Shown here: positions 20,542-30,439 of the stretch, piece after piece | Position numbering within the stretch: the first letter of the stretch is position 1 | Layout of the letters: the number at the start of each line of letters is the position of its first letter | Source: an alpha proteobacterium HIMB59 | GTDB taxonomy: Bacteria; Pseudomonadota; Alphaproteobacteria; HIMB59 | Direction: 5' to 3' | Assembly (NCBI GenBank): GCA_000299115.1 | Contig: CP003801.1 | Span: 744,001-808,000, forward strand | Length of the DNA stretch: 64,000 bases | Translations under genes and position numbers: made by a program | Notes under the pieces: model-generated | Told to the model about the DNA's origin: nothing | What the model saw: the letters and a program-made list of their open reading frames with translations, nothing else | The model's database searches: none

Positions 20542-21171
20542 ATGAAATCAAAGCAAGAAAAATTAGCCAACTTATTTGTTCAAGATGTGCCAAAATTTGG
20601 CTGGTCTAGAGAAACTCTTCTTCAATGTGCAAAAAAATTGAAGATTTCCACACCTAATTTAGCTCTTTTATTTCCATCATTTGAATACGATGTATTAAAA
20701 TTTTTAATAGCTCAAAATAACGCTCTTGTAGAAAAGAACTACAACTCTTTTAATAACTCCCGTTTAAAAGTAAGAGATAAAATTAAAACAATCCTAGAAT
20801 TAAAGTTTGAGAGTAATGCTTACTTAAAAAAGGCTTTACCAGAGATGCTAAAGTTCTTACTTCGTCCAGGAAATATTCTAATGTCCATAAAGTTACTTCA
20901 TGAAAATAGTGATTTTATTTGGAAACTTTCTGGCGATAAATCAAACGACTTTAGTTACTATTCAAAAAGAGGATTGCTTTCAATGATTTACCTCGCAACT
21001 CTAATTTATTGGTTAAATGATAGATCAAATAAAAATATTGCTACTAAAAATTTTATCAGCAAATCAGTCGATGGTATTGTCGATGGAGTATCTAGACTAA
21101 AACAACTTGGAACTTTAAGAAGCCTTGCCCAAAGTTTTATGGCAAGATATTCAACTAGCAAAGCCTCTTAA
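20542..21171 (+). CDS. coq9: COQ9 family ubiquinone biosynthesis protein
   Basis: 209-residue member of the COQ9 family: an N-terminal TetR-like helical region ([17 protein letters not shown]) followed by the COQ9 domain with its lipid-binding helix. COQ9 binds isoprenoid quinone intermediates and presents them to COQ7-type hydroxylases. Recognised from the N-terminal [11 protein letters not shown] and [12 protein letters not shown] segments and the neighbour rpsU, a standard alphaproteobacterial pairing. The 3' end overlaps the convergent SDR gene by 4 bp. Confidence 0.85.
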
Positions 21172-21926
21172 GGTCTCGCGGTTAAACCACCATCAATAAT
21201 TAACTCTGTGCCCGTGATATACTCACTTTGATCGCTTAATAAAAATAAAATTCCTTGAGCTATGCCCTCAGGCTGAATAATTTTTTTAATTGGCATAAAT
21301 TCTTTTAAGTTTTTTTTCGCATTGGGGATTTTTTTCCAACGATCTTGCATTGGAGTCTCTACAGCACCTGGAAGAATACAGTTACTTCTGATGTTGTATG
21401 CCCCAAACTGAATAGCCAATGATTTAGATAGTCGGATCATGGCAGCTTTGCTAGCTCCATAAGCATCTTGGGGCTTGTCATCTCCCGATAGTGCATCAAC
21501 TGATGAGATATGAACCATAGATCCAAATTTATTTTTTTTCATGACAGGGATGATGTATTTAGATAGCAAAACCATAGTTTTAAGATTTATATCAAAAACT
21601 TGATCCCAAATATCCAAGTCAAGATCTACGGCAGAAACATCTTTTCCAAACCACAAAACCCCTGTGGTATTTACTAGGTAATCTATTCTTTTATTAGTTT
21701 TTATAAAATTGTTGATGGTTTTTTTTAATTCTCCTTCATTGACCAAATTAATTTGACAATACGTTACTTTTTTGTGATGAAGAATTTTCTTAGTTGGTTT
21801 TTGTATATCTACAGCAAGAATTTTCACGTTGTAATCTAGTAATAACTTTATAGTTGCTAGCCCCATACCTCCTGCAGCTCCAGTGACTACAACCGTTTTT
21901 CCCTTGAGATTTAATTTCACAAACAA
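21168..21926 (-). CDS. SDR family NAD(P)-dependent oxidoreductase
   Basis: Classical short-chain dehydrogenase of 252 residues. Cofactor loop VTGAAGGMGLA near residues 13-23, the VNTTGVLWFG equivalent of the NNAG motif, catalytic Ser in VHISSVDALSG, and the YGASKAA motif with catalytic Tyr and Lys. Asp at the end of beta-2 (LAVDIQKP) suggests NAD(H) preference. The C-terminus [14 protein letters not shown] is typical. Substrate unknown. It is divergent from the aldehyde dehydrogenase, 103 bp away, and could belong functionally with that catabolic cluster, but nothing in the sequence proves it. Confidence 0.88.
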   Translation of the reverse strand: MFVKLNLKGKTVVVTGAAGGMGLATIKLLLDYNVKILAVDIQKPTKKILHHKKVTYCQINLVNEGELKKTINNFIKTNKRIDYLVNTTGVLWFGKDVSAVDLDLDIWDQVFDINLKTMVLLSKYIIPVMKKNKFGSMVHISSVDALSGDDKPQDAYGASKAAMIRLSKSLAIQFGAYNIRSNCILPGAVETPMQDRWKKIPNAKKNLKEFMPIKKIIQPEGIAQGILFLLSDQSEYITGTELIIDGGLTARP

Positions 21927-22029: not shown

Positions 22030-23418
22030 ATGAGTATTCAAAAAACAATTACCCCCATTGATAATTCTGTTTATTTAGAAAGACCTCTGTCAACTGAAGC
22101 TGAAATTGATAAAGTTATCGAGAGTTCTAAAAAAAGTTTTCAATCCTGGAAAAATACTTCTATTGAAGATCGAATTACGATTATTAACAAATTTATTGAT
22201 AATTTAATTGTGCTAAAACCTGAGGTGTCAAAAGAAATCTGTTGGCAAATCGGAAGACCTATTTCCCAATGTGGAAATGAACTAAGAGGTTTTGAAGAAA
22301 GATCAAGACACATGGTCAAGATTGCAAAAGAGTCTCTTCAAAATATTCCTGCAACCAAAAATGATGAATTTGATAATTATATTTATAAGTCTCCACTCGG
22401 TGTCATTTTTGTTATGGCTCCATGGAATTATCCTATTATAACCGCAACTAATACTATCGTTCCTGCCTTATTAGCAGGTAATACTATTTTGATTAAGCAT
22501 TCATCTCAGACACCTCGATGTGCTGAGTTAATTTCTCAAGCTTTTGAAAATACGGGATTACCTGAAGGTGTATTCCAATTTGTTCATACAGATCATCAAT
22601 CTTGCGAAAAAATTATTTCAGACAATCGAATTGCCCACGTTGTCTTTACCGGATCAGTAAAAGGTGGCCAAGAAGTAAAAAAATATATCGGTACTCGTTT
22701 TATAAATGTTGGACTTGAGTTAGGAGGTAAAGATCCTGCTTATGTTCGATCCGATGCAGATATAAATCATGCTATCGAGAATTTAGTCGATGGCGCAATG
22801 TTTAACTCTGGACAGTCATGTTGTGGTATTGAGAGAATTTATGTAGATCAATCAATTTATAAGGACTTTATTGATGGTTTTAAAAATTTAACTGAACAGT
22901 ATAAGTTAGGCGATCCCTCAAAAGAAGACACTAATCTTGGACCAGTTGTTCGCCTTTCAGCTGCAAATTTTATTCGAAGTCAAATGGCTGAAGCAGAACA
23001 GCAAGGCGCTAAAAGATTAATAGATGAATCTAAATTTAGTATTTCTAAAGAAGATAATTGTTATGTAGCACCTCAAGTAATGATTGATGTTGATCATTCT
23101 ATGAGGTTTATGATGGAAGAAACATTTGGTCCTGCTGTTGGTATCATGCCAGTAAAAGATCACAATGAGGCTAAAAAATTAATGAATGATAGCCCTTATG
23201 GTTTAACCGCTTCTATTTGGACCAAAGATTTAGATTTTGCTAAAGAATTTGGCAGAGATATTGAAACTGGTACTTTTTTCATGAATAGGTGTGATTACCT
23301 TGATCCTGCACTCGCTTGGACTGGCGTTAAGGATACAGGAGTAGGTTGTTCTCTTTCAGTTTTAGCTTTTGATCAATTGACAAGACCTCAAAGTTTTCAT
23401 ATGAGAAGCTTAAAATAG
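22030..23418 (+). CDS. NAD(P)-dependent aldehyde dehydrogenase
   Basis: 462-residue aldehyde dehydrogenase oxidising an aldehyde to the acid. Complete ALDH fold: MAPWNYPI cofactor segment, FTGSVKGGQEV, general base Glu230 in LELGGKDP, and nucleophile Cys264 in NSGQSCCG. ETFGPAVGI lies near the C-terminus. It is closest in character to the succinate-semialdehyde/gamma-aminobutyraldehyde-type ALDHs of about 460 residues. It opens the plus-strand run with the PLP enzyme, TRAP transporter, glutamine-synthetase-like ligase and Fe-ADH, so the substrate is probably the aldehyde made by that ADH or by the PLP enzyme (inference). Confidence 0.93.
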   Translation: MSIQKTITPIDNSVYLERPLSTEAEIDKVIESSKKSFQSWKNTSIEDRITIINKFIDNLIVLKPEVSKEICWQIGRPISQCGNELRGFEERSRHMVKIAKESLQNIPATKNDEFDNYIYKSPLGVIFVMAPWNYPIITATNTIVPALLAGNTILIKHSSQTPRCAELISQAFENTGLPEGVFQFVHTDHQSCEKIISDNRIAHVVFTGSVKGGQEVKKYIGTRFINVGLELGGKDPAYVRSDADINHAIENLVDGAMFNSGQSCCGIERIYVDQSIYKDFIDGFKNLTEQYKLGDPSKEDTNLGPVVRLSAANFIRSQMAEAEQQGAKRLIDESKFSISKEDNCYVAPQVMIDVDHSMRFMMEETFGPAVGIMPVKDHNEAKKLMNDSPYGLTASIWTKDLDFAKEFGRDIETGTFFMNRCDYLDPALAWTGVKDTGVGCSLSVLAFDQLTRPQSFHMRSLK

Positions 23419-23431
23419 TAACTTCATATTT

Positions 23432-23464
23432 TTAGCTAATTGTAATAGCTTAGACATTAGCTAA
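23432..23464. promoter_or_regulatory. Inverted repeat before the class III PLP gene
   Basis: TTAGCTAAT (23432-23440) and ATTAGCTAA (23456-23464) are perfect 9-bp inverted arms separated by 15 bp. They end 4 bp before the start codon at 23469 and take up most of the 50-bp intergenic gap. The element could be a regulator site or an RNA hairpin hiding the start. There is no T-run after it, so it does not look like an intrinsic terminator. Confidence 0.45.
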
Positions 23465-23468
23465 CCTT

Positions 23469-24836
23469 ATGACAAAAAAAAACAAACTAAGTTCAAGTGA
23501 AAAGGTATCAGAAGGTGATATAAATTTATCTCCTCAAAGAAAAGCATGGTCAGAGGCTCATATAAATAAAGAGACACAGAATTTATTATCTGAAGACGCA
23601 AAATATTTTTTACATCAATCACTCTCCAGCCCTTGTTTGAATGTTCTTACTAAAAGTGAAGGTATTTATTTAAAAGATTTACAAGGCAGAGATATTATGG
23701 ACTTTCATGGTAATAGTGTGCATCAAGTAGGTTATGGTAATGCTAAAGTTGTCAATGCAATCAAACAACAACTTGATGAACTTCCTTTTTGCCCTAGACG
23801 TTATACAAATCAATCAGCCATAGATCTTGCAAAGCGTTTAGCGGAATTAACTCCAGGGAAATTAAATAAAATGCTTTTTGCACCTGGTGGTACTAATGCA
23901 ATTGGAATGGCTCTTAAACTGGCTCGATACGCAACAGGAAGATACAAAACAATTTCCATGTGGGATAGTTTTCACGGTGCCTCACTTGATGCTATTTCAA
24001 TAGGGGGAGAGAGTTTATTTCGAAAAGATTTAGGACCTCTTTTGCCTGGAAATGAGCACGTTCCCCCTCCTACCCAAGGCAAGTGTCATTTTAACTGCAA
24101 AGATGAAAATCATGACGGCTGTATTGAGTATTTAAAATACATAATTGAGACAGAAGGAGAGATAGGCGCTCTCATTGCAGAACCAATGCGATGGACTACT
24201 GTCGAGCTTCCACCAAAGAATTATTGGCAGAGGGTTCGTGAAATATGTGATCAAAATGAAATTCTGTTAATTTTTGATGAGGTCCCATCTGCAATTGGCA
24301 GGACAGGAAAAATGTTTGTTTGTGAACATTTTAACATTGTGCCAGATATGCTGGTAATCGGAAAGGGACTAGGGGGAGGAGTTTTTCCACTAGCCGCATT
24401 AATTGTAAATGAAAACTTAGATATTACTGGTGATAGGGCTCTGGGACATTATACGCATGAAAAAAGTTCGGTGGGTTGTGCCGCAGCATTAGCAACTATT
24501 GATTGTCTATATGAAGATAAACTTATTGAAAATTCAGTTTCACTTGGGATTAAAGGTTTGGAATTTTTGAAAAATATGAAATCAGAACACTCAATTATTA
24601 GCGATGTAAGAGGTCTAGGTTTATTTTTTGGAATAGAATTGCGAGTGGATGGCGAACCCGCTCTCAAAGAAGCAGAAGCAATGATGTACCATTCACTTTC
24701 AAATGGGTTGAGTTATAAAATAGGTGGGGGTTGCATCATAACTCTTTGCCCTCCATTAAATATTTCTGAAAAAGAATTATTTACCGCTCTTGAAATTATT
24801 AACGCAGGCCTTCATGAGATAGCAAGAAAAGATTAA
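23469..24836 (+). CDS. Class III PLP enzyme, PbfA-like (possible ammonia-lyase rather than aminotransferase)
   Basis: 455-residue fold-type-I PLP enzyme. PLP contacts are APGGTNAIGMALKLA (phosphate loop), WDSFHGASLDA (ring stacking), IFDEVPSAIGRTGK (Asp to pyridine N) and VIGKGLGGG with Schiff-base Lys299. Segments such as DFHGNSVHQVGYGN, LDELPFCPRRYTN and GNEHVPPP recall, as I remember the family, (R)-1-hydroxy-2-aminoethylphosphonate ammonia-lyase PbfA and the phospholyase branch rather than GABA or ornithine aminotransferases. No phosphonate genes (phnW, phnX, phnA) are in the window, so the substrate may differ. A Cys/His-rich insert (GKCHFNCKDENHDGC) is notable. Fold certain; the PbfA link is a moderate-confidence inference. 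Confidence 0.8.
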   Translation: MTKKNKLSSSEKVSEGDINLSPQRKAWSEAHINKETQNLLSEDAKYFLHQSLSSPCLNVLTKSEGIYLKDLQGRDIMDFHGNSVHQVGYGNAKVVNAIKQQLDELPFCPRRYTNQSAIDLAKRLAELTPGKLNKMLFAPGGTNAIGMALKLARYATGRYKTISMWDSFHGASLDAISIGGESLFRKDLGPLLPGNEHVPPPTQGKCHFNCKDENHDGCIEYLKYIIETEGEIGALIAEPMRWTTVELPPKNYWQRVREICDQNEILLIFDEVPSAIGRTGKMFVCEHFNIVPDMLVIGKGLGGGVFPLAALIVNENLDITGDRALGHYTHEKSSVGCAAALATIDCLYEDKLIENSVSLGIKGLEFLKNMKSEHSIISDVRGLGLFFGIELRVDGEPALKEAEAMMYHSLSNGLSYKIGGGCIITLCPPLNISEKELFTALEIINAGLHEIARKD

Positions 24837-24870
24837 TTTTTCTAATTAATTATGCTAGCTTAACCACTTT

Positions 24871-25380
24871 ATGCCAAATCTATTTATTATTTATGTTCAT
24901 TTCATCGATAAAATAACAGACATAATTGGCAGGATTACTATGTATACAGTCTTTGTCATGATGGGCATCCTGGTATTATCTTTCGTAACCAGAAATATCA
25001 TAAACTTTCCATTACTTTGGATTATTGAAATGGCTCAATTTATTATGACTGGCTACTATTTGATGGGTGGAGCATACTCGATGAAAGAAAATCAACATGT
25101 CCGCATGGATCTTGTTTATGGAAATTTATCTGAGAAAAATAAAGCTCGAATGGATTTGTTTACAAGTGTATTTCTAATTTTTTATCTCGTAGTCTTATTA
25201 ATCGGTTCATACAATAGTTTGGTTTACACTTTAGAGACAAACAAAAGACTATTTACTGCTTGGGCGCCGTATGTATGGCCTATCAGCAGTATTATGTTTT
25301 TAGGAATTTTATTGATGATTCTTCAAACATTTTCAACAGTATTTAAAGACTATGCAAAGGTTAAGGGTCTAAAAATTTAA
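24871..25380 (+). CDS. dctQ: TRAP transporter small permease (DctQ)
   Basis: 169-residue four-helix membrane protein, the small subunit of a tripartite ATP-independent periplasmic transporter. Hydrophobic segments at roughly 20-40, 50-70, 95-115 and 130-155; the IIEMAQFIMTGYYLMGGAYSMKENQHVRMDL stretch contains the GAxxxxxxNxHVRMD-like core of DctQ proteins. The stop codon overlaps the dctM start by 1 bp (TAATG). Works with the next two genes to import a small carboxylated or zwitterionic solute. Confidence 0.93.
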   Translation: MPNLFIIYVHFIDKITDIIGRITMYTVFVMMGILVLSFVTRNIINFPLLWIIEMAQFIMTGYYLMGGAYSMKENQHVRMDLVYGNLSEKNKARMDLFTSVFLIFYLVVLLIGSYNSLVYTLETNKRLFTAWAPYVWPISSIMFLGILLMILQTFSTVFKDYAKVKGLKI

Positions 25381-26711
25381 TGCTTGCTGAATATTTTAGT
25401 TACGAAGCTATTGCGATCCTTATGTTCGCTACGATGCTAGTGATGTTATTAACTGGCCAAAGAGTTTTTGGAGCAATTGGTTTTGTTGCTGCAGCGGCCG
25501 CTTTACTTTTATGGGGAGATGGTGCCGTAGAAATGCCATTCACAGCATCTTGGAAACTTTTCAAATGGTATCCAATGCTCACACTTCCTCTCTTTATATA
25601 TATGGGATACATGATCTCAGAGTCAGGTATCGCAAATGATTTATATAAAATGTTCCATGTATATTTTGGAGGAACGCGAGGCGGATTAGCAATTGGAACG
25701 ATGTTTATGATGGTCGCTATATCAGCGATGAACGGTTTAAGCGTTGCGGGAATGGCAGTAGGTGCAACAATTGCCTTACCTGAAATGTTAAAAAGAAATT
25801 ACGACAAACGGATGATCAGTGGTGTTGTCCAAGCTGGAAGTTCGCTTGGAATATTAATACCTCCCAGCGTCGTATTAGTTCTCTATGGAATGATTGCACG
25901 ACAGCCAGTTAGTAAGTTATGGCTCGCAGGATTAATTCCAGGATTAATCATGGCATCACTTTTTATCTTATATATCTACATCCGTTGTAGATTGCAGCCA
26001 GAACTTGGTCCAACTCTTCCCAAAGAAGAAAGAGAAATGCCCTTTATTGAAAAATTAAAACTTTTAAGAGCGGGCATTATTCCTTTCGCAATTTTCTTTG
26101 TTATGACAGGTCTATTTATTATGGGTATAGCTAGCTTGGTAGAATGTTCTGCGGTTGGCGCTCTTGCAGCTACCATTGCTGCATGGTCTAAAGGAAGATT
26201 GAACTTAAAAGTTATAGAGGATGTTTGTAAAAAAACTCTTGGTGTTTCATGTATGTTTATGTGGATCATCTTAGCTGCACTTTGTTTTGGCGCTGTTTTT
26301 GATGGTATCGGTGCAGTAAAAGCTATTGAGTCATTATTTATTGAGCGTTGGAATTTAAGTCCATGGGGCGTTCTGATAATGATGCAGTTATCTTATATCT
26401 TAATGGGAATGTTTTTAGATGACACCGCAATGTTAGTAATTGTTGCGCCGCTATACGTTCCTTTAATCATTGCTCTTGGATTTGATCCTATTTGGTATGG
26501 TGTTCTCTATACGATTACATGTCAAATAGCATATATGACTCCACCTTTTGGTTATAATTTATTCTTAATGAAAGCAATGGCCCCAAAAGAAATAACGTTA
26601 ATTGATATTTATCGCTCAATTATTCCGTTTGTTTTGGTTATGTTATTTGGTTTGGTGATTATGATGATGTTCCCACAAATTGCCCTTTGGCTACCTACAA
26701 CTCTGCTTTAA
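25380..26711 (+). CDS. dctM: TRAP transporter large permease (DctM)
   Basis: 443-residue integral membrane protein with about 11-12 hydrophobic segments, the Na+-driven transport subunit. Typical DctM segments are LPLFIYMGYMISESGIA, SSLGILIPPSVVLVLYG, IMMQLSYILMGMFLDDTAMLVI and ITCQIAYMTPPFGYNLF. The (G)ILIPPS and TPPFG motifs are family hallmarks. Coupled to dctQ by a 1-bp overlap. The substrate-binding gene follows after 72 bp with its own strong ribosome site, consistent with higher expression of the binding protein. Confidence 0.95.
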   Translation: MLAEYFSYEAIAILMFATMLVMLLTGQRVFGAIGFVAAAAALLLWGDGAVEMPFTASWKLFKWYPMLTLPLFIYMGYMISESGIANDLYKMFHVYFGGTRGGLAIGTMFMMVAISAMNGLSVAGMAVGATIALPEMLKRNYDKRMISGVVQAGSSLGILIPPSVVLVLYGMIARQPVSKLWLAGLIPGLIMASLFILYIYIRCRLQPELGPTLPKEEREMPFIEKLKLLRAGIIPFAIFFVMTGLFIMGIASLVECSAVGALAATIAAWSKGRLNLKVIEDVCKKTLGVSCMFMWIILAALCFGAVFDGIGAVKAIESLFIERWNLSPWGVLIMMQLSYILMGMFLDDTAMLVIVAPLYVPLIIALGFDPIWYGVLYTITCQIAYMTPPFGYNLFLMKAMAPKEITLIDIYRSIIPFVLVMLFGLVIMMMFPQIALWLPTTLL

Positions 26712-26783
26712 AAAAAAGTCAAGCTATAATCTTTATTCCTAATTTAAATTTTTTTTTATATAATTTGATTCCGGAGGAAAATT

Positions 26784-27866
26784 ATGTCGACAAAGAAGAA
26801 AAATAATATCTCTCCATCTTCAAGGAGAGGTTTTCTAAAAAAAGCCGGATTAGTATCAGCTGCAGCTATTGGCGCTACAGCTGCAAAGGCGCCATACGTC
26901 TATGCCGCTTCTAATCCAGTAAAGTGGAGATTACAAACTTATTCAGGTGCTCCATTAGGTGCTCACGTTGTTCTCCCTCAGATTGAAGCTTTCAATAAAG
27001 CTGCTTATGGGGAAATGGAAATTGAGTTGTACTATGCTGATCAACTAGTACCAACTGATGAGCTATTTAGAGCAATGCAAGCAGGAACCATTGATGCTGT
27101 TCAATCAGATGATGCAACTATGGGTTCACCAGTAGATATCTCTGTTTTTGGTGGTTACTTCCCATTTGCTACTCGTTATAGCCTCGATGTTCCAGCGATG
27201 TTCAGATACTACGGTCTTGATAAAATCTGGGCTGAAGCATATGGCGAAGTCGATAACGTAACATGGTTAAGCACAAGTGCTTGGGATCCATGTCACTTAT
27301 TTACAGTTAATAAGAAAATCGAAAAGCTTGAGGACATGAAAGGTCTAAGAGTGTTCGGTGTTCCAACTGCTGGTCGTTTCCTAGCTCAATATGGATTGAT
27401 CCCTGTGATTGTTCCTTGGGATGATGTGGAAGTAGCTATGCAGACTGGTGAACTTGATGGTGTTTGCTGGTGTGGATTTACTGAGGCTTATGAAGTTGGA
27501 TGGGCAGATATTTGTAACTATGCTCTTACTAATTCAGTAACTGGTGCATGGTTTGGTTCTTATTTTGCTAACAGCGAAAGCTGGAACAAACTTTCACCAA
27601 AACTTCAAGAGCTTTTCAAAATGTCAATTGACCAATCTCACTACTATAGACAAGTATGGTATTGGGGTGGTGAAGCTGACCTACGTGTTAACGGAAAGAA
27701 GATGGAATTAACAAGTCTTCCTTCAGACGAGTGGGCCGGTGTTGTCAAAGACGCTGAAAAATTCTGGGATGATGTTGCGGCTTCTTCACCAAGAAGTGGC
27801 AAAGTAGTTGAGGCATTCAAATTGTATGCAGCAACTATGGACAAAGCAGGTTATCCATACAGATAA
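26784..27866 (+). CDS. dctP: TRAP transporter solute-binding protein (DctP), Tat signal
   Basis: 360-residue periplasmic binding protein. The N-terminus carries a twin-arginine signal (SSRRGFLKKAG, then a hydrophobic stretch ending KAPYVYA), so it is probably exported folded. The mature part is DctP-like: LRVFGVPTAGRFLAQYG, TGELDGVCWCGFTEAYEVGW. The Trp- and Cys-rich pocket region is consistent with the TRAP subfamily binding keto acids, amino-acid-derived or sulfonate-like ligands rather than C4-dicarboxylates, but the ligand cannot be read from sequence. GGAGG at 26773-26777, 6 bp from the ATG, is the best ribosome site in the cluster. Confidence 0.93.
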   Translation: MSTKKKNNISPSSRRGFLKKAGLVSAAAIGATAAKAPYVYAASNPVKWRLQTYSGAPLGAHVVLPQIEAFNKAAYGEMEIELYYADQLVPTDELFRAMQAGTIDAVQSDDATMGSPVDISVFGGYFPFATRYSLDVPAMFRYYGLDKIWAEAYGEVDNVTWLSTSAWDPCHLFTVNKKIEKLEDMKGLRVFGVPTAGRFLAQYGLIPVIVPWDDVEVAMQTGELDGVCWCGFTEAYEVGWADICNYALTNSVTGAWFGSYFANSESWNKLSPKLQELFKMSIDQSHYYRQVWYWGGEADLRVNGKKMELTSLPSDEWAGVVKDAEKFWDDVAASSPRSGKVVEAFKLYAATMDKAGYPYR

Positions 27867-27875
27867 TATAATATT

Positions 27876-27908
27876 AGCTCACCTCATTTATCAATGGGGT
27901 GAGCTTTT
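27876..27908 (+). terminator. Rho-independent terminator or attenuator after dctP
   Basis: AGCTCACCTC (27876-27885) pairs with GGGGTGAGCT (27896-27905), ten pairs including one G-U, with a 10-nt loop, followed by a short T-run (TTTTCT). It ends about 10 bp before the glutamine-synthetase-like start codon, so it either ends the dctP transcript or dampens read-through to the ligase and ADH genes. Confidence 0.75.
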
Positions 27909-27917
27909 CTCAATAAA

Positions 27918-29279
27918 ATGCCATTAAATTTTAAACAGTTAGAAAAAAAGATTAAGTCAGGCGATATTGATACGGTTCTTGTAGCTTTATCAGATATGCA
28001 AGGAAGATTAGTTGGCAAAAGGGTTACAGGTAAAGCTTTTTTAGATTATGTCCACAAAGAAACTCATTTTTGTAATTACCTCTATACGGTTGATATGGAC
28101 ATGTTCACAGTGCCTGGTTTTAAATCTTCTTCTTGGGAGACTGGTTACGGAGATATGACAGTCATCCCAGATCATCAAACAATAAAAGAATTACCTTGGT
28201 TAGAAAAAACTGCATTAGTTTTGGGAGATGCCTTTGAGCATGATGGAAAAACTCCAGTGGCACATTCTACAAGACAAGTTTTAAGAGAGGCTATAGCTAA
28301 AGCAAATAAAATGGGATTTGAGCCAATGCTTGGATCTGAATTAGAATTTTTTCTCTTTAAACAGACCTATGAAGAAATTCATGCTAATCACTATAAAAAT
28401 TTAAAAGAGACTTCTTGGTATATTGAAGACTATATGCTTTTTCAAACTTCCAAAGAAGAACCTTTTAATCAAGAGTTAAGAAATAGTCTTTTAGCTTCAG
28501 GTATTTATGTGGAATGTACCAAAGGTGAAGCGGCACCAGGCCAACAAGAAATTAATGTTGTTTTTACTGACGCTTTGAATATGGCAGATAACCATATTTT
28601 AATTAAAAACGCTGCAAAAGAAATTGCATTCAAGCATAATCGAGCAGCTAGCTTTATGGCAAAATATAATAAAGAAGCTTGTGGAAGTTCATGTCATATT
28701 CACAATTCTTTATTTGATAAAAAAACTAAAAAAAATATTTTTGCAGACTCAAAAGACAAATATGGCATGTCTAAAACTTTTAAAAGTTATGTTGCTGGAC
28801 AGATTTTATTCTTAAGAGATCTTTCTATTTTCTTAGCTCCAAATATTAATTCCTATAAACGCTTTCAAGAGGGTTCATTCGCCCCAACGACAGCGGCTTG
28901 GGGCATCGATAACAGAACGGCTGGTTTTCGCTTAGCCGGACATGGGGGCTCAATTAGAATTGAATGTCGAGTACCAGGTGCTGATGTAAATCCTTATTTG
29001 GCTTTTGCCGGTTTAATTCAAGCTGGTTTATATGGAATTGAAAATAAATTAGAGCTAGAAGATCCATTGATGGGAAACATTTACCAAAATAAAAAAGCTA
29101 AAAGTGTCCCTGGTACTTTGAGAGAAGCTATTGATTTAGCTAAAAAATCAAAGTTATTACCAAAGATTTTCCAAGCTGATGTTTTGGAACACTATATTCA
29201 TGCTGCCGAATGGGAACAGTCTGAATATGATAAATCTGTTAACGATTGGGAACACCAACGTTACTTCGAACGAGGATAA
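27918..29279 (+). CDS. Glutamine-synthetase-family ligase (gamma-glutamylamide synthetase-like)
   Basis: 453-residue ligase with the GS fold, related to PuuA/IpuC/GlnA4-type enzymes that gamma-glutamylate amines instead of ammonia. Visible active-site segments: LGSELEFFLF, GEAAPGQQEINVVF, ACGSSCHIHNS, NSYKRFQEGSFAP and the C-terminal RVPGADVNPYLAFAG. The FDGSS loop of true GlnA is replaced by KSSSWETGYGDM, as in amine-specific members. The start codon has no Shine-Dalgarno and lies 10 bp after a terminator-like hairpin. With Fe-ADH next and ALDH upstream, the set matches amino-alcohol routes where a gamma-glutamyl conjugate is oxidised (inference). Amine substrate unknown. Confidence 0.85.
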   Translation: MPLNFKQLEKKIKSGDIDTVLVALSDMQGRLVGKRVTGKAFLDYVHKETHFCNYLYTVDMDMFTVPGFKSSSWETGYGDMTVIPDHQTIKELPWLEKTALVLGDAFEHDGKTPVAHSTRQVLREAIAKANKMGFEPMLGSELEFFLFKQTYEEIHANHYKNLKETSWYIEDYMLFQTSKEEPFNQELRNSLLASGIYVECTKGEAAPGQQEINVVFTDALNMADNHILIKNAAKEIAFKHNRAASFMAKYNKEACGSSCHIHNSLFDKKTKKNIFADSKDKYGMSKTFKSYVAGQILFLRDLSIFLAPNINSYKRFQEGSFAPTTAAWGIDNRTAGFRLAGHGGSIRIECRVPGADVNPYLAFAGLIQAGLYGIENKLELEDPLMGNIYQNKKAKSVPGTLREAIDLAKKSKLLPKIFQADVLEHYIHAAEWEQSEYDKSVNDWEHQRYFERG

Positions 29280-29293
29280 AATAGGAGACTAAA

Positions 29294-30439
29294 ATGCAAA
29301 ATATGAACTGGAATTATCCAACCACTGTCTGGTTTGGTCCTGATCGATCTCAGCAAATACAACAAGCTTGTGATGCTTTGGGCGTAAAAAACCCTCTTAT
29401 TGTGACTGACCCAGGTCTGCTACAAACCCCTATTATTGATGAAATTAATTCTAATCTTTCATCTAAAACAAATGTTTACTCTGATGTTCAAGGTAATCCT
29501 ACTGGTTCAAATGTTACCAATGGAGTTAAAGTATTTTTAGAAGGTAATCATGATGGGGTTATTGCAATAGGTGGTGGTTCCGGTATGGATGCGGGAAAGG
29601 GTATTGCCTTTCTAGCTCATCAGTCAAGACCATTATGGGATTTTGAAGATATTGGAGATTGGTGGACTCGAGCTGACTCTGATGTCATTAAACCTATTAT
29701 TGCGATTCCAACAACAGCGGGTACAGGCTCTGAAGTTGGTAGAGCAGGGGTTTTCTTAAATGAAGAAAACCATAAAAAGAAAATTATTTTTCATCCAAAA
29801 ATGTTACCTCAAATCGCAATCTTAGATCCTTCATTAACAATTAACTTACCAAAAGGAATTACAGCAGGAACAGGAATGGATGCATTAGCTCATTGCTTAG
29901 AAGCTTATTCATCTCCTTTTTACCATCCTATGGCAGAGGGTACGGCTTTAGAAGGTCTTCGATTGGTTAAAGAAAATATTCAAGAAGTTTATCACAATGG
30001 AAAAAATATTGATGCTCGTGCTCATATGCTTGTTGCATCAATGATGGGTGCAGCTGCTTTTCAAAAAGGACTAGGAGCCATTCATTCAATTACACACCCA
30101 GTTAATTCTCTCTATCATACTCACCATGGTACAACGAACGGAACAGTGATGCCTTTTGTCTTAAACTATAATCGAAGCACAATTGAAGATAAATTTGTGC
30201 GTTTAGCTAATTTCTTAGATATCAAAGGGGGTTTTGACGGAATAGTTCAATGGATTATTGATTTGAAAAAAGAAATGGAAATTCCTGAAACACTTAAAGA
30301 TATGGATGTTCAACCAGGAGATGAGGTCAAATTGGCACCGTTAGCTCAAGAAGATCCAAGCACGGGCGGTAATCCATTGGAGATGACTGAAGAGAAATTC
30401 CAGGAGTTAATTTCGAACTGTATTTTAGGTAAGTATTAA
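29294..30439 (+). CDS. Iron-containing alcohol dehydrogenase
   Basis: 381-residue group III (Fe) ADH. The N-terminal Rossmann part has IAIGGGSGMDAGKG and IPTTAGTGSEVG for NAD(P). The metal site is fully conserved: Asp196 and His200 in GMDALAHCLEAY, His264 and His278 in the IHSITHPVNSLYHTHHG segment, the same spacing as in FucO. A good ribosome site (AGGAGA) precedes the ATG, 15 bp after the ligase gene. It probably oxidises an alcohol, or reduces an aldehyde, within the amine pathway of this cluster. Specificity not determinable from sequence. Confidence 0.92.
   Translation: MQNMNWNYPTTVWFGPDRSQQIQQACDALGVKNPLIVTDPGLLQTPIIDEINSNLSSKTNVYSDVQGNPTGSNVTNGVKVFLEGNHDGVIAIGGGSGMDAGKGIAFLAHQSRPLWDFEDIGDWWTRADSDVIKPIIAIPTTAGTGSEVGRAGVFLNEENHKKKIIFHPKMLPQIAILDPSLTINLPKGITAGTGMDALAHCLEAYSSPFYHPMAEGTALEGLRLVKENIQEVYHNGKNIDARAHMLVASMMGAAAFQKGLGAIHSITHPVNSLYHTHHGTTNGTVMPFVLNYNRSTIEDKFVRLANFLDIKGGFDGIVQWIIDLKKEMEIPETLKDMDVQPGDEVKLAPLAQEDPSTGGNPLEMTEEKFQELISNCILGKY

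Follow-up and report, generated by a model that had tools for sequence, protein, structure and literature searches.

A predicted ethanolamine operon with a probable PbfA insertion in a marine HIMB59 genome

Seven plus-strand genes in the HIMB59 genome very probably represent an operon for ethanolamine, or a close amino alcohol, that carries an inserted gene for PbfA, a separate lyase of (R)-1-hydroxy-2-aminoethylphosphonate ((R)-HAEP). The ethanolamine reading is predicted from the gene content, from the homology of EtoX to Csal_0678 and of the ligase to those of the eto type, and from the six-gene set that sister genomes possess without PbfA. Most likely, the operon is ordinary apart from PbfA, and PbfA is its unusual passenger. 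The HIMB59 order is made up of small marine genomes. The genome under study is a single contig of 1,410,127 bases and is 99.87% complete; the window, that is, the whole stretch of DNA analysed, is 64,000 bases in length and covers positions 744001–808000 of that contig. The seven open reading frames lie at 22030–30439 of the window, with intergenic gaps of 50, 34, −1, 72, 51 and 14 bp, and the class of each protein was assigned by NCBIfam and Pfam family searches. Together with one divergent neighbour, they are as follows.

21168..21926, minus strand: SDR oxidoreductase (PF13561), divergent neighbour of the ALDH gene, tentatively part of the locus
22030..23418, plus strand: ALDH (PF00171, E230/C264), predicted gamma-glutamyl-aminoacetaldehyde dehydrogenase (GAADDH equivalent)
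23469..24836, plus strand: PLP enzyme, PbfA (NF049939, tree), probably a horizontally acquired insert
24871..25380, plus strand: EtoV-like TRAP small permease (DctQ, also called EtoQ; PF04290)
25380..26711, plus strand: EtoW-like TRAP large permease (DctM, also called EtoM; PF06808)
26784..27866, plus strand: EtoX-like predicted ethanolamine-binding protein (DctP; PF03480), with Tat signal
27918..29279, plus strand: GS-fold ligase (PDB relatives, motifs), predicted ethanolamine gamma-glutamylase (ETAGA equivalent)
29294..30439, plus strand: Fe-ADH (PF00465, metal site), predicted gamma-glutamylethanolamide dehydrogenase (GETADH equivalent)

The sequence-only reading had described seven plus-strand genes in this region, and all of them were confirmed, together with E230/C264 of the ALDH, Lys299 of the PLP enzyme, the D196/H200/H264/H278 metal site of the Fe-ADH, the absence of FDGS from the ligase and the Tat signal of DctP. 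In sister genomes, the order ALDH-EtoQ-EtoM-EtoX-GS-FeADH is kept without the PLP gene, and Ruegeria sp. B32 and Paracoccus albus both show the order TRAP-GS-ALDH-FeADH; therefore, the cluster is not a chance arrangement. A scan of the locus for promoters and terminators gave sites no more frequent than in shuffled sequence. The SDR gene is divergent from the ALDH gene and adjoins it in both families of the order.

EtoX is present in 36 of the 162 genomes of the order. The closest plasmid-borne relatives of the window EtoX (L209, L246, L247, L248) have as neighbours one FGGY glycerol-kinase-like gene and two FAD oxidoreductases, in most cases along with a DeoR regulator. The window EtoX carries a twin-arginine SRRGFLKK signal; it matches Csal_0678 (4uab/4xf5) with 435 bits and 58% identity over 318 aligned positions, and the next solved relative scores 51 bits. 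The Csal_0678 structure (PDB 4UAB) was solved with ethanolamine, which is held via a platform Glu (PMC12410723). Glu234 of the window EtoX, which at least 97% of 60 homologues share, aligns with index 217 of the 4uab chain; assuming a numbering offset of 3, it is probably the equivalent of the published Glu220. The two permeases, DctQ and DctM, are 46% and 73% identical to their Ruegeria B32 counterparts, respectively.

The nearest EtoX relatives (70–79%) mostly adjoin glycerol-kinase-like and FAD-oxidoreductase genes, often with glycerol-3-phosphate-oxidase-like and DeoR genes; because of these glycerol-kinase-like neighbours, the operon may target another small amino alcohol (2-amino-1-propanol, serinol or aminopropanediol) and not ethanolamine. 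We consider this unlikely, however, since the Chelatococcus EtoX (74%), a member of the same EtoX group, has eutBC nearby, the window EtoX has the probable binding Glu, along with many aromatic residues, in common with the ethanolamine-bound homologue, and P. albus carries the same GS-ALDH-FeADH set.

The ligase and the dehydrogenases are in agreement with the ethanolamine reading. The best PDB relatives of the window ligase are 11zs and 5dm3, at 483 and 434 bits, and the next scores 195; we take 5dm3 to be Csal_0679 of Chromohalobacter salexigens. The ligase lacks the FDGSS loop, and its flap is SFAP, compared to YEAP in the GlnA of the genome. It scores 239 bits versus a GlnA cut-off of 429 and groups with the ligases of other eto clusters, apart from the genome's own GlnA, which bears out the earlier claim that it is not an ammonia-using GlnA. 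With their counterparts in the Ruegeria B32 eto operon, the ALDH shares 43% identity and the Fe-ADH, the metal site of which is intact, 53%. The earlier proposal of an uptake, gamma-glutamylation and oxidation system for a small amino alcohol gains support. The 1.41 Mb genome (L229–L232) encodes six GS-family proteins, one of which, recognised by eye, is a GlnA adjoining a PII-like gene. Family f2 of the order (L067–L076, L094–L096) has EtoQ-EtoM-EtoX, SDR, ALDH and Fe-ADH, with no ligase beside EtoX; in the f2 genomes without an EtoX-linked ligase, no GS exceeded 31% full-length identity with the window ligase, although absence is not proven in these assemblies, which are 67–84% complete.

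The window cluster contains neither a gamma-glutamylglycine amidohydrolase gene (FGase family) nor an RpiR regulator gene. The lack of a gamma-glutamyl hydrolase in the cluster had been pointed out before; it was confirmed here, and a search of 11 order members (the HIMB59 genome and 10 others) revealed no FGase (PF05013). The amidohydrolase and RpiR genes are present in the eto clusters of Phaeobacter MED193 and Ruegeria B32 and missing in P. albus, so they are not universal. In Ruegeria B32, the amidohydrolase position is occupied by one FGase-family gene annotated as N-formylglutamate amidohydrolase. Presumably, another hydrolase serves the last step in the window genome. The C26 peptidase encoded at 684332–684958 of the genome matches PuuD with 57 bits versus a cut-off of 266; owing to this weak score it was rejected as the proven last hydrolase, and it stays a candidate. 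That the known final amidase appears to be missing from the order suggests that the last step can be replaced.

By analogy, the window operon would supply the uptake and enzyme steps for ethanolamine. EtoX would capture ethanolamine and EtoVW would import it; the ligase would couple it to glutamate with ATP. The Fe-ADH would oxidise the alcohol of gamma-glutamylethanolamide, and the ALDH would convert the resulting aldehyde to gamma-glutamylglycine, from which an amidase encoded elsewhere in the genome, the C26-type peptidase being one candidate, would free glutamate and glycine.

The PLP enzyme scores 665 bits against NF049939 (PbfA), for which the cut-off is 525. Besides Lys299, it keeps 91 of the 92 near-invariant PbfA columns (conservation of at least 95% across 64 PbfA sequences), the sole departure being I272V. 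The enzyme had been called PbfA-like before, and the tree agrees, placing it with PbfA and apart from the other class III aminotransferases of the genome; on the same grouping, transamination was ruled out. In the IQ-TREE analysis, the window PbfA and the copy of a second genome, CP.5, are nested in marine Rhodobacteraceae (sets of 5 and 9 rows, 100/96 and 100/98), whose pbfA genes mostly neighbour phnY-phnA-phnW; the wider PbfA clade also includes gammaproteobacterial loci with AEP transporters. Whereas PbfA of close relatives is found with phnY-phnA-phnW or an AEP transporter, the window pbfA gene is located in the eto operon, outside any aminophosphonate cluster. Vibrio PbfA has virtually undetectable activity on ethanolamine (PMC8154272). 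Based on this near-inactivity, the family score, the tree, the neighbours of its relatives and the intact columns, (R)-HAEP is the best-supported candidate for the substrate of the window PbfA.

PbfA is encoded in only 3 of the 162 genomes of the order. In genus members with an eto cluster, EtoQ starts 11–49 bp past the ALDH gene, with nothing between; a PLP gene after ALDH is present only in the window genome and CP.5. The CP.5 contig ends just past the PLP gene, and its PLP-EtoQ link was deduced from synteny. In the third genome, the copy (70%) belongs to a phosphonate cluster that also encodes PhnT2, PhnS2, PhnU2, PhnW and PhnX. The full set of seven genes does not extend beyond two genomes, and with PbfA in 3/162 genomes and sister eto clusters without it, a co-inherited seven-gene unit was ruled out. 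The pbfA gene was probably acquired laterally, its insertion separating the ALDH gene from EtoQ. The neighbouring genes span a GC range that includes the value of the PLP gene (36.8%), so base composition was rejected as proof of transfer, and the transfer claim relies only on the tree and on gene order in the sister genomes.

The same genome possesses phosphonate genes at 401.6–411 kb, namely those for PhnA (482 bits, cut-off 408), PhnY (744, cut-off 636), a TIGR03364 FAD oxidoreductase and the PhnS2-T2-U2 transporter (PhnS2 523, cut-off 393), as well as a DUF6-type permease below its family cut-off. This phnA/phnY/AEP-transporter cluster is ∼366 kb away from the window pbfA gene. The sequence-only reading had found no phosphonate-specific gene; this stands for the window and does not stand for the genome. 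PhnX, as a downstream enzyme, was not found in the HIMB59 genome or CP.5, and matches to PhnW in the HIMB59 genome were all sub-threshold. A hydrolytic AEP route has already been reported in the HIMB59 clade (PMC11366302). PbfA, probably coming from a marine Rhodobacteraceae-like donor, would act separately from the eto enzymes: it would convert (R)-HAEP to phosphonoacetaldehyde, with loss of water and ammonia, and PhnY and PhnA would turn the latter into acetate and phosphate. A purely phosphonate role does not explain the position of PbfA in the eto operon, away from phnA and phnY.

A single dedicated phosphonate pathway made up of all seven genes, in which the TRAP system would bring in HAEP, is scarcely plausible. 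PbfA is part of the operon, and relatives of the ALDH and Fe-ADH adjoin AEP-transporter/PbfA clusters in one alphaproteobacterial family and PbfA in another. However, MED193 EtoX, which binds ethanolamine with a Kd of 7.9 μM, did not bind phosphorylethanolamine (PMC10132767), an AEP-type ABC transporter is encoded separately in the genome, which also has a PhnY of its own scoring above the family cut-off, and most sister eto clusters are without PbfA.

We also surveyed 71 PbfA loci (1.06 Mb of DNA), using tblastn for the neighbourhoods in high-GC loci. Relatives of GS-ALDH-FeADH were found near PbfA in two alphaproteobacterial families (L098/L100 and L104/L105; in the latter the ligase is ∼5 kb further, in L233/L234) and in one betaproteobacterial MAG (L175), and one Vibrio plasmid (L245) has EutB near phnW-pbfA-phnX. 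Assuming one set per 4 Mb, 0.27 GS-ALDH-FeADH sets are expected by chance, and the chance of three lineages is ∼0.003, a rough figure that is post hoc, has no matched control and comes from non-independent loci in which nutrient genes cluster anyway. We regard the recurrent linkage of HAEP and ethanolamine use in other lineages as a lead. In marine Rhodobacteraceae (L143, 6086–7996, and relatives), PbfA comes after genes for a zinc-type alcohol dehydrogenase and a hydroxypyruvate-isomerase-like protein, a pairing of which we know no description.

These neighbourhoods bear on whether the PLP enzyme was retuned to act on ethanolamine or a related amino alcohol, as a B12-free lyase that yields acetaldehyde and ammonia and forms a second branch beside gamma-glutamylation. 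The gene lies inside an eto operon, PbfA chemistry removes an OH beside CH2-NH2, which is the ethanolamine skeleton, other lineages also have PbfA near gamma-glutamyl or eut genes, and 29 of the 71 PbfA loci have no phosphonate gene in the DNA examined. Nevertheless, retuning is very improbable, given the near-inactivity of the Vibrio enzyme on ethanolamine (PMC8154272), the retention of 91/92 columns, the phn clusters around the nearest PbfA relatives, the phnY and phnA genes of the genome, and the persistence of sister eto clusters without the PLP gene. There is likewise only a slim chance that the operon PbfA became, or doubles as, a B12-independent PLP ethanolamine (amino-alcohol) ammonia-lyase in a two-branch pathway.

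Ethanolamine is a common lipid head group. The pbfA and eto genes may share one operon because both substrates could derive from lipid head groups, and the PbfA insertion suggests that ethanolamine and hydroxy-aminoethylphosphonate use may be coupled in some marine bacteria. With our analysis, a complete HIMB59-type genome joins those predicted to carry the EtoX-type ethanolamine route, which is reportedly abundant in the ocean; Pelagibacterales account for 19% of etoX hits (PMC10132767). In a literature search with subscription papers mostly outside its reach, which makes it weak evidence of absence, we found neither a paper linking HIMB59 with ethanolamine nor a description of the eto and PbfA combination.

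The sequence-only reading knew of no described pathway with this combination; its six-gene part is known for ethanolamine in Phaeobacter MED193 (PMC10132767), with a homologue structure in 4UAB. The MED193 route consists of EtoVWX, ethanolamine gamma-glutamylase, gamma-glutamylethanolamide dehydrogenase, gamma-glutamylacetylaldehydeamide dehydrogenase and gamma-glutamylglycine amidohydrolase (Westermann et al. 2023, PMC10132767), and the products of the MED193 eto operon rise on phosphorylethanolamine (PMC10132767). Like the MED193 operon, the window cluster combines a TRAP system, a GS-type ligase, an ALDH and a Fe-ADH in one operon. Different from MED193, it has no RpiR and amidohydrolase genes, it has the divergent SDR and PbfA, and its ALDH gene comes first, whereas that of MED193 follows the ligase. 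Chromohalobacter salexigens offers a structural counterpart, as its binding protein (4uab/4xf5) is 58% identical over 318 residues and its ligase (5dm3) matches with 434 bits. In the GlnA4 pathway of Streptomyces coelicolor (PMC6529630), the first step is ethanolamine gamma-glutamylation, as predicted for the window operon. Compared to PbfA of the Vibrio (PMC8154272) and Rhodobacteraceae phosphonate clusters, the window protein is above the NF049939 cut-off, has the same signature residues and is nested in the clade; however, its gene lies in an ethanolamine operon, with phnY and phnA distant, in a genome without phnX and without phnW above the cut-off.
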